A stretch of 64,000 bases of DNA, from positions 1,579,501-1,643,500 of the forward strand of contig NZ_UHIO01000001.1 of NCBI RefSeq assembly GCF_900460315.1, in the 5' to 3' direction. Below, piece by piece: positions 2 to 50,011 of the stretch (position 1 is the stretch's first letter; every line of letters begins with the position of its first letter). The stretch comes from Veillonella criceti. Its GTDB lineage: Bacteria > Bacillota > Negativicutes > Veillonellales > Veillonellaceae. The translations under genes and the position numbers were made by a program. The notes under the pieces were generated by a model. It did no database searches and was not told the origin of the DNA. It was given only the letters and a program-made list of their open reading frames with translations.

Positions 2-211
2 TGGACTAGTGGTGGCGCTTTTCCTGATGATGTGCGCACCTTTGATTTAATTATTCATTGTGGTGCTTGTATGTTGACTCGTCGTGAAGTTTTGCGCCGT
101 TTGGACGTTTCACAGGAACAAGGTGTTCCTATTGTAAATTATGGCGTGCTAATTGCGTCATTACATGGTATACTAGACCGTGCACTCAGTCCGTTTGTGG
201 CTGAATTATAA
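2..211 (+). CDS. hydF: HydF, [FeFe]-hydrogenase maturation GTPase (C-terminal fragment)
   Basis: Only the last 69 codons lie in the window; the gene starts upstream of base 1. HydF is the scaffold GTPase that carries the 2Fe subcluster to apo-[FeFe]-hydrogenase. The fragment contains an HCGAC segment, matching the family's C-terminal HCxxC cluster-binding motif, then a VPIVNYGVLIA stretch and a short terminal helix as in HydF tails. This implies the organism makes an [FeFe]-hydrogenase, consistent with an anaerobe. The GTPase and dimerisation domains cannot be seen, so the call rests on the tail alone. Confidence 0.8.
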   Translation, partial: WTSGGAFPDDVRTFDLIIHCGACMLTRREVLRRLDVSQEQGVPIVNYGVLIASLHGILDRALSPFVAEL

Positions 212-18220: not shown

Positions 18221-18497
18221 TTGACAAAGTATATGTGTTTATGAGAGAATAACACACATCAAATGAAATAAGCGATGAACAGGTATAAAGAGCTATTGAG
18301 TTGCTTACAGAGAGTTGCCGGTTGGTGCGAGGCAATAGAACAAATAGTATCGAAACTCCCCTGTGAGCTTTGTGGTTGAATATTAGTAAGCCATGACGGT
18401 AGTTCCGTTATAACTACAAGAGAACCAACTAGGGTGGTACCGTGTTATAGTTTATGATGCCCCTGGAACACAGTAATGTGATTCCAGGGGCTTTTTT
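18221..18497 (+). promoter_or_regulatory. Leucine-specific T-box leader of the leu operon
   Basis: The promoter has TTGACA (18221-18226) and a weak -10 near 18245. The leader contains a Stem I with GGTTGGTGCGAGGC, a specifier loop with CTC (Leu) at 18356-18358, the conserved T-box element AGGGTGGTACCGTG (18431-18444) and a terminator (CCCCTGGAA...TTCCAGGGG plus T run, 18459-18497). Uncharged tRNA-Leu would pair with CTC and the T-box bulge, block the terminator and permit leuA transcription. The specifier frame matches the Cys and Trp T-boxes in this window: specifier, three bases, then a TGNGAG-like segment. Confidence 0.93.
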
Positions 18498-25185: not shown

Positions 25186-25446
25186 AAAAAAGGCGCACTT
25201 CGACCACGAAATGCGCCTAAATATCCTATGTTGCGTCTCGTCCCGGTCTTATAGATCCAAGCGAATATGACAATGTACTGTTATTTCATGGACGGCAACT
25301 AAGCCTAGCGATAGGTTTGCTCTAGCAGTGATGAATTGATATGGTTCGTTGCAGATACCATTCAACAGACTGACGAGCCAAGAAAATGCCTAAGTCCTGA
25401 AATGATAGTATATGTCCATAGTAGTATAGGGGGTGGGGGTTGTCAA
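25186..25446 (-). promoter_or_regulatory. Unassigned leader with promoter and terminator upstream of DUF2520-panB
   Basis: On the minus strand, TTGACA (25446-25441), a 17-base spacer and TACTAT (25423-25418) predict +1 near 25411. The roughly 225-base leader ends in a strong terminator (GGCGCAtTTCG/CGAAgTGCGCC plus six T, 25217-25186) only 35 bases before the gene. This promoter-leader-terminator-gene layout is that of a riboswitch or attenuator. I cannot match it to the T-box, TPP, SAM, FMN, lysine or cobalamin consensus. A pan-motif RNA is possible because that class precedes pantothenate genes, but I cannot confirm it. Confidence 0.6.
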
Positions 25447-25508: not shown

Positions 25509-25824
25509 TTGACTTCTCTTTCCTACCTGTGTATAATTGAGAAAAACATAAAGATATCGTCGACGAACAGGAAGAGTAATTATAAAAGTTCGGCTACAGC
25601 GAGTCGGGAATGGTGGGAGCCTGATGCAAGAATTTATAATGAATGGACCTGGGAGACGTGGCCCGAACTTTGGTAGGCGCCACCGGTCATCTCCGACCGT
25701 TAACAAAGGAGCGCGTATCGCCTGTGGGTAGGCCGTACGTAGTGAGCCGGGTCTTTATGACCAATTGGGGTGGCACCGCGGATAACCTTCGTCCCTAGAT
25801 TTTTGGGATTGGAAGGTTTTTTTT
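25509..25824 (+). promoter_or_regulatory. Tryptophan-specific T-box leader of the ECF transporter operon
   Basis: The promoter TTGACT (25509-25514), 17 bases, TATAAT (25532-25537) is near consensus. The leader has a Stem I with GGAATGGTGGGAGCC, a specifier TGG (Trp) at 25644-25646 followed by ACC-TGGGAG, the T-box TTGGGGTGGCACCGCGG (25765-25781) and a terminator AACCTTC...GAAGGTT with a T run (25784-25824). Uncharged tRNA-Trp should switch the operon on. This predicts that the transporter imports tryptophan or a precursor. Confidence 0.92.
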
Positions 25825-40523: not shown

Positions 40524-40882
40524 TTGACACTTTTAATTCATAGTGTTATAGTAGGCATATGATTTGAATAGGAATCATAGTGAGGAAGAGAAAAGTACAT
40601 ATATTGATTTGTGTGCAGCGAGCCCGGATGGTGAAAGCGGGTCATAAAAGATATATGGAAGTGCATCTCGGAGCTATAAGGGCAAAGCTAATATTAGGGG
40701 AGTCCTTTTCGGGTGTCGCCCGTTACAGCGAATCTGTATACAGTTGAATGATGAGAGGGAAACCTCTGGAGAACATTATTTAGCCTGTACAGTAGAGGTT
40801 TGGTTGTGCGCACGATCAAATGAAACAAGGTGGAACCGCGATATATCGCCCTTGGTCACAAAGTGACCAAGGGCTTTTTTTT
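40524..40882 (+). promoter_or_regulatory. Cysteine-specific T-box leader of cysK-cysE
   Basis: The promoter TTGACA (40524-40529), 17 bases, TATAGT (40547-40552) is strong. Stem I contains CCCGGATGGTGAAAGCGGG. The specifier codon is TGC (Cys) at 40662-40664, followed by ATC-TCGGAG. The T-box element AAGGTGGAACCGCG is at 40827-40840, and the terminator CCCTTGGTCAC/GTGACCAAGGG with eight T follows (40848-40882). Uncharged tRNA-Cys should relieve termination and turn on cysteine synthesis. Confidence 0.93.
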
Positions 40883-42868: not shown

Positions 42869-43306
42869 TTATTTTTTTCTATAAGTATTTACTAGATAAT
42901 CAATCGCTTGACAATAGCCAGCCACGCCTTGGCCCATAATAACTTTCTCCGCATATTCACTTACATAGGAATAATGACGGAACGTTTCACGCTCTTTAGG
43001 ATTGGAGATATGAACTTCAACTGTAGGGAGATGTACTGCTTTCAAGGCATCTAAAATAGCTATCGATGTATGACTGTAAGCGGCAGGATTGATAATGATG
43101 GCATCAATGTCAAAACGAGCGGCTTGAATGCGATCTACCAGACTTCCTTCGTGGTTGCTTTGATATAAGCTGACCGAAATATCTAGAGATTCTGCATATT
43201 CTCTAAGTTGATGAACTAAATCTTCGTAGGTTTCAGAGCCATAAATATCAGGTTCGCGTAAGCCTAATAGATTAATATTTGGCCCATTAAGAATTAAAAT
43301 GTGCAT
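42869..43306 (-). CDS. aroQ: 3-dehydroquinate dehydratase, type II
   Basis: 145 residues. Third step of the shikimate pathway. Type II motifs: LNGPNINLLGLREPDIYG with the catalytic Tyr, QSNHEGSLVDRI, INPAAYSHTS and VEVHISNPKERE. Full length. It is the last gene of the aro cluster and overlaps the aroEK gene by 20 bases, so it is translated from within that gene's end. Confidence 0.96.
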   Translation of the reverse strand: MHILILNGPNINLLGLREPDIYGSETYEDLVHQLREYAESLDISVSLYQSNHEGSLVDRIQAARFDIDAIIINPAAYSHTSIAILDALKAVHLPTVEVHISNPKERETFRHYSYVSEYAEKVIMGQGVAGYCQAIDYLVNTYRKK

Positions 43307-44546
43307 GATATTCCTCCTCTATATAATTGGCCCCTTCGTCGGGGGTAGTAAAATTGACACAAACCTGTGAAAACGCCGTATAGAGTGGTTGGCGAATTGT
43401 ATAGAGTGTTTCTAATCGTTGTAAGCCACCTTGTGAAAGGGGACGATTGTCTGTAGCTAATGCAGTTAAGGGGCGTTGAAGCCAATAGATACGGCCATTT
43501 TGACGAAGACTGGCATAGTTTTCAGGTCGTGTAACTACACCGCCGCCAGTGGCGATAATAGCACCGGTGGTTTTACACAGTTCTTGGAGTAGCACCGTTT
43601 CTTTTTCGCGGAAGTCGGCTTCCCCATGAGTAGCAATATATTCACCTGGATGACAATATCGTTTTTCGAATTCGTCATCACAATCGATGAGAGGGCGTTT
43701 GAAACGATTTGCTAACGCTTCGCCAACTGTGGTTTTACCAACACCAGGCATGCCAATAAGGATTATATTTTCTTGTTCTTGGCGCAGTTGGGTAATAATG
43801 CGTTCAGCCTCTTCTTTGGTAAAGGTTTTCTTTTGAAATAAAGTCGCGGCAGCTACAGCTTGTCCAACGAGCATGGGAAGACCATCGCTATAAGGGATGC
43901 CTTTTTGCTCTGCTTCGATAAGGAGGGCTGTGCGATAAGGATTGTATATTACATCAACGACACCCGTGAGATTGGTGAAATCAGCTAATGAAATGAGTTG
44001 ATTCGGGCAGTTTGGGTACATACCTACCGGTGTCGTGTTAATGATAACTTCGGTGTCATGCGCATGCTGGGGTGCTTCTTCATAAAATGGAGCCGTTTTA
44101 CGAGATAGATGAATAATTTCACGGGCCCCTAAATCTTCTAAGGCAATATGAACTGTGTGAGAGGTGGCGCCATCGCCAAGAACAAGCACTTTTTTACCTG
44201 TAATAGTAATATTGGCTCGTTGTAACATGAAGATGAATCCATCATAGTCCGTATTATGGCCATACCAACTATTATCGGCTTGACGAACCATTGTATTTAC
44301 ACAGCCAATGCGTTTAGCTGCATCGGATAGGCTCTGACAAGCGCTCATTACCGTTTGTTTATACGGAATGGTTACGTTGAGACCCTTTAAATCAGGCTGT
44401 GCTAGAAATTGTGCTAATTCATGAGGCGCTCGTTCAAAGAGCGCATAGGCTGGATTACCAAGGGCCTTATGAATGGCAGGCGAATAGCTGTGCCCCAAAG
44501 TCTTACCAAGCAGACCATAGGGACTGAGTACAGGCGTTTGACTCAT
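43287..44546 (-). CDS. aroE-aroK: Fused shikimate dehydrogenase-shikimate kinase
   Basis: 419 residues combining two consecutive pathway enzymes. Residues 1-255 are AroE: GHSYSPAIHKAL, NVTIPYK with catalytic K63, NTD (97-99) and an NADP loop GDGATS (124-129). Residues 258-419 are AroK: Walker A GMPGVGKT (265-272), DCDDEFE (Asp290-291), FREKE with R313, and ATGGGVV (334-336 Gly). All key residues are present, so both activities are expected. The fusion would turn dehydroshikimate into shikimate 3-phosphate on one chain. Neighbours aroC and aroQ are closely spaced. Confidence 0.95.
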   Translation of the reverse strand: MSQTPVLSPYGLLGKTLGHSYSPAIHKALGNPAYALFERAPHELAQFLAQPDLKGLNVTIPYKQTVMSACQSLSDAAKRIGCVNTMVRQADNSWYGHNTDYDGFIFMLQRANITITGKKVLVLGDGATSHTVHIALEDLGAREIIHLSRKTAPFYEEAPQHAHDTEVIINTTPVGMYPNCPNQLISLADFTNLTGVVDVIYNPYRTALLIEAEQKGIPYSDGLPMLVGQAVAAATLFQKKTFTKEEAERIITQLRQEQENIILIGMPGVGKTTVGEALANRFKRPLIDCDDEFEKRYCHPGEYIATHGEADFREKETVLLQELCKTTGAIIATGGGVVTRPENYASLRQNGRIYWLQRPLTALATDNRPLSQGGLQRLETLYTIRQPLYTAFSQVCVNFTTPDEGANYIEEEYHAHFNS

Positions 44547-48547: not shown

Positions 48548-48587
48548 AAAAAAGCCACGAGTTGCCAGCGTTAGGCTATCGTGGCTT
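48548..48587 (-). terminator. Terminator between aroF and aroB
   Basis: On the minus strand AAGCCACGA and TCGTGGCTT form a 9-bp stem followed by six T. It separates aroF from the rest of the aro genes. Confidence 0.85.
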
Positions 48588-48640: not shown

Positions 48641-49645
48641 TTAGTTAGCTAATACGTCACGAAGAGCAAATACCTCTTTCGTTAGGGAGGCAAATTGATC
48701 AGGGCGTAATGCCTGTGGGCCATCGCAAAGTGCTTTAGCTGGATCAATGTGAACTTCAATCATGAGCCCATCAGCGCCGCCACCAGTAGAAGCAAGGGAT
48801 AATGGACGCACCATACGACTCATGCCGGCCGCATGGCTAGGATCCATGATGATTGGTAAATGACTGAGTTCGTGAATCATCGGAATGGCTGTTACATCAA
48901 GAGTATTACGGGTTTTCGTTTCAAAGGTACGGATACCGCGTTCGCAAAGAACAATTTGCGTATTGCCTTCGCTCATGATGTATTCGGCAGCCATTAACCA
49001 TTCTTCGTAGGTAGCACTAAGGCCACGTTTCAAAAGAACCGGTTTATTCAATTTACCTACTTCTTTGAGTAGGGTAAAGTTTTGCATGTTGCGAGCGCCG
49101 ATTTGAAGCATATCTACTTCATCGAAGTATTGGAGTTGGGATGGATCCATGACTTCGGAAACGATTGGCAAGCCCGTTTCCTTCTTGGCCATGACTAAGA
49201 GTTCTAGTCCTTCTGGCCCCATACCTTGGAAAGAGTATGGGGAGGTACGAGGTTTGAAGGCGCCGCCACGAAGGATGGTAGCACCTGCTTCTTTTACGGC
49301 TTTGGCTGTGGCAATTACTTGTTCAGGTGTTTCAACGGAACAAGGCCCAGCCATGATAGCGAAGTGGCCGCCCCCAATTTTAACGCCACTTACATCAACG
49401 ATAGTATCTTCAGGATGGAATTTACGATTAGCTTTTTTGAATGGCTCTTGAATACGAGTTACTTTTTCTACAATATCAAGGGATTCAATTTGGCGTTTGT
49501 CGAGTAAAGACGTATCGCCAATTAAACCAATTAGAGAGTAATTGCTCCCTTGTACAGGATGCAAGATAATGCCTTGTGCCTCTAATTTGGCAGATAACTC
49601 TTGAATTTTCTCAGCTGTTGCATGTTCCTTCAATGTGATAATCAT
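48641..49645 (-). CDS. aroF: 3-deoxy-7-phosphoheptulonate (DAHP) synthase, type I-beta
   Basis: 334 residues. Condenses PEP with erythrose 4-phosphate, the entry step of aromatic synthesis. Residues 1-70 are the ferredoxin-like (ACT-like) regulatory domain, followed by the barrel with IMAGPCSVE, RGGAFKPRTSPYSFQG, LLKRGLSATYEEWL and DPSHAAGM. This is the I-beta class with an N-terminal allosteric domain. GAGGAGA before 49645 fixes the start. It is preceded by a Tyr/Phe leader-peptide attenuator and followed by its own terminator, so it is regulated separately from aroBAC-EK-Q. Confidence 0.96.
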   Translation of the reverse strand: MIITLKEHATAEKIQELSAKLEAQGIILHPVQGSNYSLIGLIGDTSLLDKRQIESLDIVEKVTRIQEPFKKANRKFHPEDTIVDVSGVKIGGGHFAIMAGPCSVETPEQVIATAKAVKEAGATILRGGAFKPRTSPYSFQGMGPEGLELLVMAKKETGLPIVSEVMDPSQLQYFDEVDMLQIGARNMQNFTLLKEVGKLNKPVLLKRGLSATYEEWLMAAEYIMSEGNTQIVLCERGIRTFETKTRNTLDVTAIPMIHELSHLPIIMDPSHAAGMSRMVRPLSLASTGGGADGLMIEVHIDPAKALCDGPQALRPDQFASLTKEVFALRDVLAN

Positions 49646-49746: not shown

Positions 49747-49784
49747 AAAAAGGGAGCTACCCGCGTGCACTACGGGTAGCTCCC
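49747..49784 (-). terminator. Attenuator terminator upstream of aroF
   Basis: A perfect 12-bp stem GGGAGCTACCCG/CGGGTAGCTCCC with a 9-base loop, followed on the minus strand by five T. TACCCGTAG in its first arm can instead pair with CTACGGGTA inside the leader reading frame (plus-strand 49838-49846), a 9-bp antiterminator. Confidence 0.9.
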
Positions 49785-49814
49785 TAACTATATCAAGCCA
49801 TCAATGATACTTAA

Positions 49815-49907
49815 TCAGCGTAGCCCAAATAGTCCTTTACCCGTAGACTGGATAAAGAACCCAAAATAGAAGTATTGGCTATGTAATGTGCTGATTTGCG
49901 TACTCAT
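49815..49907 (-). CDS. Tyr/Phe-rich attenuator leader peptide of aroF
   Basis: A 30-codon frame starting at ATG 49907 with AAAGGAG nine bases upstream and ending in TGA 31 bases before the terminator stem. Residues 12-18 are Y-F-Y-F-G-F-F, six aromatic codons in seven, with one more Phe at 27; the rest is unremarkable. The product is presumably not functional. Ribosome stalling at these codons when Tyr or Phe is scarce would free or block downstream RNA pairing. The layout (promoter, peptide, terminator, biosynthetic gene) matches peptide-mediated attenuation as known for proteobacterial pheA. Confidence 0.85.
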   Translation of the reverse strand: MSTQISTLHSQYFYFGFFIQSTGKGLFGLR

Positions 49908-49932
49908 TATATTGGCTCCTTTCTAAAAGTGA

Positions 49933-49969
49933 TTGCCAACATTATAAACCTATGGTTTTTATTTGGCAA
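49933..49969 (-). promoter_or_regulatory. aroF leader promoter with flanking inverted repeat
   Basis: On the minus strand TTGCCA (49969-49964), a 17-base spacer and a perfect TATAAT (49946-49941) predict +1 near 49934, 27 bases before the leader ATG. TTGCCAA and its complement TTGGCAA form an inverted repeat, one arm over the -35 and one over +1. It could bind a repressor. Confidence 0.8.
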
Positions 49970-50011
49970 GTCTTTTTTTACAAAACATTTGCAGAATGTA
50001 TGTAAACGTTC

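Follow-up and report, generated by a model that had tools for sequence, protein, structure and literature searches.

How is entry into aromatic amino acid synthesis controlled in Veillonella criceti? In the window analysed here, a 64,000-nucleotide stretch of contig NZ_UHIO01000001.1, the DAHP synthase gene aroF is preceded on the minus strand by a short open reading frame (ORF) with a run of aromatic codons and by an intrinsic terminator. Sequence comparison and predicted folds make it very likely that this leader is a ribosome-mediated transcription attenuator of aroF. Below, we describe its parts, the alternative structures that they can form, their spread among relatives and the other explanations that they might have.

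Promoter, leader peptide and terminator of aroF

The following features are given in window positions.

49941-49969 (-): sigma-70 type promoter, TTGCCA-17-TATAAT, with the -35 element at 49969-49964 and the -10 element at 49946-49941
49914-49920 (-): leader Shine-Dalgarno (SD) sequence AAAGGAG, including GAGCC at 49918-49914
49815-49907 (-): leader peptide ORF, MSTQISTLHSQYFYFGFFIQSTGKGLFGLR, SD-led, 30 codons and the stop TGA
49854-49874 (-): control codons 12-18, encoding Tyr Phe Tyr Phe Gly Phe Phe, with Trp in place of Gly in most relatives
49747-49785 (-): intrinsic terminator hairpin and T run, the stem at 49785-49751 followed by T5
48641-49645 (-): aroF, DAHP synthase with a ferredoxin-like domain (PF00793; PF18152, from residue 19; TIGR01361)
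48549-48587 (-): hairpin AAGCCACGA...TCGTGGCTT and T run 3' of aroF, read by eye, its loop being too large for the scan

The original prediction had placed four elements here. Its near-consensus promoter is borne out, with 11 of 12 consensus bases, and transcription would start close to 49934. The 30-codon leader carrying YFYFGFF at codons 12-18 was read correctly, as was the perfect 12-bp terminator with its T run: the scan assigns 14 pairs to the stem, the perfect 12 (GGGAGCTACCCG/CGGGTAGCTCCC) among them. The fourth element, a 9-base pairing between the leader frame and the first arm of the terminator, stands in that CTACGGGTA is the exact complement of TACCCGTAG, but it proves to be only one end of a longer antiterminator. 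A short SD-led ORF between promoter and terminator, with a run of end-product codons (here codons 12-18), is the layout of trp/pheA type attenuators, and an aromatic run is found in 27 of 27 family genomes.

Such an arrangement is rare by chance. An SD-led ORF of 10-65 amino acids with at least five aromatic residues in eight codons occurs in 12 of 1500 random 400-nt stretches of the 64-kb window, and aroF is the sole one among 49 long ORFs in the window to have one upstream. The leader RNA folds 6.5 standard deviations lower than dinucleotide shuffles. Across 110 leaders, the aromatic fraction of the run is 0.62 in frame versus 0.13 and 0.21 out of frame, with the run chosen in frame; when the best stretch is picked independently for each frame, the values are 7.5, 2.5 and 3.4 aromatics per 12 codons. 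TTT is the most frequent aromatic codon. Leader pN/pS is only moderately low, at ~0.4-0.7 for the majority of groups, and one closely related genus has 2.2, a pattern that RNA structure acting on the same bases would produce.

The aroF start is probably at 49645 (SD AGAGGAG) rather than at ATG 49699, since alignments with homologues outside the genus begin at residues 7-19 (at 13-19 for most close ones) and the Pfam domain begins at residue 19. An in-frame 18-codon extension, 49699-49645 (-), is found in most of the genus and is absent from other genera; it may be genuine, provide a coupled start or have no role. Downstream, the hairpin and T run are followed by a promoter-like site (48550-48523) that precedes aroB, and aroF is therefore probably monocistronic. 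This suggests a separate transcription unit for aroB, aroA, aroC and an aroE-aroK-like gene (named by eye). At 43287-44546 (-), a single ORF resembles, by eye, shikimate dehydrogenase fused to shikimate kinase.

Predicted mutually exclusive pairings in the leader RNA

Six segments of the leader RNA take part in the predicted structures.

49890-49896 (-): segment A (AATCAGC), early in the leader ORF, pairing with segment X when the ribosome is absent
49850-49860 (-): region 1 (GTTCTTTATCC), overlapping codons 16-20 and pairing with GGGTAAAGGAC at 49842-49832
49838-49846 (-): region 2 of the antiterminator (CTACGGGTA), partner of region 3
49813-49819 (-): segment X (GCTGATT), overlapping the leader stop codon
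49795-49799 (-): GGCTT, partner of GAGCC in the leader SD (49918-49914) in a long-range helix
49770-49778 (-): region 3 (TACCCGTAG), in the terminator 5' arm

The predicted structure without a ribosome (OFF) consists of the SD helix, the helix between the early ORF and the stop region, the 1:2 hairpin and the terminator. In 24 distinct family sequences, 90% of its cells are paired versus 37-51% in slid versions, and double-sided changes number 43 versus 22 in shuffles, a value reached by 0 of 500 shuffles, although relatives within the family share descent and such counts overstate independence. In the SD/GGCTT helix, 95% of cells are paired, the last pair exchanges among CG, AU, GU and UA, and GGAGCC:GGCUU in one genus corresponds to GGAGCAAC:GUUGCUU in another. 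One pair of the A/X helix changes from C-G to U-A between genera (AUCAGC:GCUGAU versus AUUAGC:GCUAAU). The pairing of region 1 with GGGTAAAGGAC is kept in 98% of cells in the 24 sequences, and the terminator is 99.3% paired, with five pairs changed on both sides.

The antiterminator, or ON structure, is paired in 93.7% of cells versus 23-42% when slid. Its covariation score is matched by 75 of 500 shuffles, and the covariation is weak on its own because the antiterminator is highly conserved. Region 2 lies inside the no-ribosome helices, which therefore cannot coexist with the antiterminator. Prediction and comparison thus give the mutually exclusive 1:2, 2:3 and 3:4 pairings of trp/pheA type attenuators.

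Codon dependence of the predicted fold

The effect of ribosome position was modelled by letting only the RNA between ribosome and polymerase pair. In this equilibrium model without kinetics, the antiterminator probability of the window leader is 0.53 with the A-site at codon 13, 0.97 at codons 14-17 and 0.63 at codon 18; it is 0.00 at codons 19-31 and 0.01 without a ribosome. Codons 7-11 are fairly permissive too (0.76-0.82), and codon 12 (Tyr) gives 0.05, so that the modelled peak fits the aromatic run well but not exactly. As in trp/pheA type attenuators, a stall at the control codons and not beyond them frees the antiterminator in the folding model.

Among 50 varied leaders, the terminator 5' arm is sequestered at 0.63 with the ribosome at the run, 0.41 without a ribosome and 0.44 with the ribosome late, versus 0.51, 0.53 and 0.40 in shuffled leaders. 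The difference between run and none is 0.22 versus -0.02 in shuffles (p ~1e-6, with related sequences treated as independent). In the window's family, duplex energies computed for region 2 against the terminator arm alone separate well, but outside it the separation is weak, apparently because the other families rely on a segment towards the end of the ORF; ribosome-dependent folding took its place. A variant that masked only the ribosome footprint and allowed pairing across it left the antiterminator in place with the ribosome at the stop codon, an outcome that disappears under the usual assumption.

These folds are consistent with the following course of events. Translation of the leader would begin shortly downstream of the promoter. 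A shortage of charged Phe-tRNA or Tyr-tRNA would stall the ribosome at codons 13-18, where it would cover region 1; region 2 would then pair with region 3 in the terminator 5' arm, extended by further pairs, and polymerase would enter aroF. If the control codons were read normally, the ribosome would move over region 2 to the stop codon, the 2:3 pairing would be blocked and the terminator would form. With no ribosome loaded, region 2 would be held by the 1:2 hairpin and the long-range helix (joining the early ORF to the stop region and the SD to GGCUU), again leaving the terminator to form.

Amino acids probably read by the control codons

The original prediction described a Tyr/Phe run. The YFYFGFF codons are present, but most family relatives add Trp, which was lost here by a TGG to GGG change, as it was in locus L031. 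GGG replaces the relatives' TGG at leader codon 16 or its equivalent in loci L010 and L031, which belong to two different genera, and removes Trp from the sensor. Because Trp stands in the run of most relatives, the ancestral sensor probably read all three aromatics (Phe, Tyr and Trp). The run is worded YFYFWFF, YFYWFF, TFFWFF, YFFWYYFF, VYAYFNF or AYAYFWYF elsewhere in the family, and its aromatic character persists. The window leader would sense Phe and perhaps Tyr, given that the Corynebacterium glutamicum aroF leader (Phe-Tyr-Phe) is reported to respond to Phe, not Tyr (PMC11802643).

Distribution of the leader in Negativicutes and Clostridia

A close aroF is present in 27 of 28 family genomes, and each of these 27 carries the leader with its terminator, the antiterminator pairing and a promoter of the type TTG-16..18-TAtAaT lying 59-65 nt 5' of the leader ATG. 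The alignment of relatives proposed with the original prediction was made: the aromatic codons and the pairing are conserved and the rest of the peptide drifts, a comparison that supports the attenuator interpretation. What does not hold is the view of the leader as a local oddity, as it is universal at aroF in the family, and leader-peptide attenuators are known in Firmicutes.

A profile of the leader peptide found 25 of the 27 at E < 1e-13, each the sole strong match in its genome and at the aroF locus. The divergent leader of one genome (G002) was matched weakly (E 0.016) and that of another (G007) was missed, though present on inspection of the locus. The profile found no match in the family genome without a close aroF (G014), and an extra weak match (E 0.01-0.04) occurs in two family genomes. 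In the two other aroF-bearing families of the order, 23 of 23 aroF loci examined have an aromatic leader; in another genome with aroF (G044), the leader profile had no match and the stretch examined contained no leader ORF.

Across the class Negativicutes, the leader is present at 34 of 60 sampled aroF loci. An Rfam scan of 20 loci placed T-boxes before aroF at six (L085, L105, L106, L112, L115 and L119), all without the leader. Scanning 84,980 species with the class-type core pattern returned 44 matches, 36 of them leaders by inspection: 13 from Negativicutes and 23 from Clostridia or unplaced Bacillota bins. Among these 23 are Clostridium magnum, C. drakei, C. cadaveris, C. luticellarii, Anoxynatronum, Tindallia, Niameybacter, Cellulosilyticum and Sporanaerobium. 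The gene 3' of these leaders, judged by eye from N-terminal sequence, is mostly aroF and otherwise aroK, aroQ, pheA or chorismate mutase. The element is patchy outside Negativicutes, given that an even sample of 398 Bacillota genomes yielded 13 matches at E <= 0.001.

Several loci show variations on this arrangement. Clostridium magnum has two copies, before aroF and before aroK (L125 and L135). At L172 (G053:C1, ~880.7 kb), the aroF leader has a second aromatic leader ~2 kb further upstream, which precedes an ACT-domain-like gene. At L180 (G048:C1:17700-20700), in a genome without a close aroF, a leader of the same type precedes a tyrA-like gene, and the fragment also carries an aroA-like gene.

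In the class-type leaders, the codons that specify S-W-G-Y-F-(Y)-F-S-A-G-Y contain the 1:2 hairpin. Its ten pairs are 90.7% paired versus 87.0 +/- 0.5 in shuffles (0 of 1000) in 59 sequences, with 13 double-sided changes versus 4.6 (1 of 1000). Slid versions are 26-45% paired, and some slides equal or exceed its double-sided changes. In the middle of the hairpin (pair 6/-9), a G-G mismatch occurs in 42 of 59 and A-U in 9. The peptide varies (W-G, Q-S, R-G, L-G, Y-S) and the pairing is kept, which points to selection on RNA pairing and codon content rather than on a fixed peptide. The class-type peptide profile did not detect the window leader; position and layout make a common origin of the two peptide types likely, although the profile does not link them.

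The databases searched hold no entry for this set. Rfam has no leader family at gathering score for the window leader, and no T-box (RF00230) appears there, even among matches up to E 10 for the leader stretch. A sub-threshold, full-length match to STnc150 at 49747-49985 (-), with 25 bits versus 60 and E 0.002, is probably chance, and the sub-threshold Rfam matches at the leader were set aside as such. Pfam and NCBIfam gave no leader peptide match up to E 1 for four leaders. The literature searched, which mostly excluded subscription papers, contained no paper on this aroF leader. We regard the leader as a large, widespread, unlisted set of a known kind, as peptide attenuators have been described in Firmicutes and at aroF of Corynebacterium glutamicum, and one has been proposed at aroF of Acholeplasma. 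Elsewhere in the window, the original prediction counted three other amino-acid leaders, all T-boxes. This roughly holds: there are three T-boxes, one of which precedes an ECF-type transporter (gene names read from translations).

18266-18467 (+): T-box before a leuA-type operon
25554-25799 (+): T-box before the ECF-type transporter
40574-40856 (+): T-box before a cysK-like gene

An Rfam pan motif just above gathering score lies at 25234-25364 (-), upstream of a cluster that resembles panB together with a neighbour (by eye).

Alternative explanations and significance

The same RNA switch could be driven by an arrest peptide, in which an aromatic-rich nascent chain stalls the ribosome in response to a free aromatic amino acid or another effector. 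From Clostridium to Megasphaera, the core F-S-W-G-Y-F-Y-F-S-A-G-Y-F shows striking conservation, as such a mechanism would have it, but the codons for these conserved residues form the arms of the 1:2 hairpin, and where the residues change (W-G to Q-S, R-G, L-G or Y-S) the pairing stays. Phe, Tyr and Trp also interchange within the run, and in the window's family an equivalent layout comes with another peptide, all of which makes an arrest peptide very improbable. Were this core an arrest peptide, three-aromatic codon reading and nascent-chain sensing would meet in one widespread Bacillota regulator, a prospect to which we give very little credence.

Long-range structure and covariation would also suit a ligand-binding riboswitch or a protein-bound antiterminator with an incidental ORF, and other riboswitch candidates have been reported in Veillonellales (PMC8632094). 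Against this reading, which we consider very improbable, stand the absence of Rfam matches at gathering scores, the presence of an SD, start, frame and aromatic run in every leader, hairpin sequences that change completely between families, and a predicted fold that depends on codon position. It is hardly credible that the terminator is constitutive or partial, behind a chance U-rich ORF and without regulation. U-rich tracts do encode Phe cheaply, in keeping with the prevalence of TTT, but the run is rich in TAY and TGG besides TTY, aromatic density is limited to the SD-led frame, and a background below 1% per 400 nt contrasts with 27 of 27 and 23 of 23 loci.

If ribosome-mediated attenuation is correct, this classical mechanism sets the aromatic entry step in relatives within Veillonellaceae, in Megasphaera, Phascolarctobacterium and several Sporomusaceae, and in many Clostridia, bacteria in which one would normally expect T-boxes. 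This large set, absent from Rfam, Pfam and NCBIfam, has enough variety for tests of how one peptide reads two or three amino acids and of how T-boxes and peptide attenuators substitute for each other at a single gene.

Comparison with known systems

The leaders of E. coli trp and pheA share with the window leader the 1:2, 2:3, 3:4 logic and control codons over region 1, and differ in gene, peptide and RNA sequence. In E. coli trpL, the leader ribosome site is sequestered, as it is predicted to be here. T-boxes likewise act by RNA antitermination that senses tRNA charging, and they precede aroF at other Negativicutes loci, but they bind tRNA directly, whereas the window has a translated peptide instead.

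The C. glutamicum aroR-aroF attenuator (Neshat et al. 2014, cited in PMC11802643; leader noted in PMC4046766) is a leader with Phe-Tyr-Phe before a DAHP synthase gene in which ribosome stalling raises transcription. Compared by description, it differs in belonging to Actinobacteria, in its run of three aromatics and in its reported response to Phe but not Tyr (PMC11802643). The uORFC-13-1 motif of Acholeplasma (PMC8632094) has an upstream ORF with one or more Phe codons directly before a terminator and aroF, and attenuation was proposed for it; by description it differs in comprising 24 sequences from Acholeplasma and environmental samples only. A distant relationship between it and the window leader is possible. 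Leader-peptide attenuators have also been reported for his genes of Firmicutes (PMC9413887, PMC2965389) and for ilv-leu of Staphylococcus aureus (PMC5794164). These systems serve other amino acids and other genes, and like the window leader they combine a translated leader, a terminator and an antiterminator in Gram-positive bacteria.
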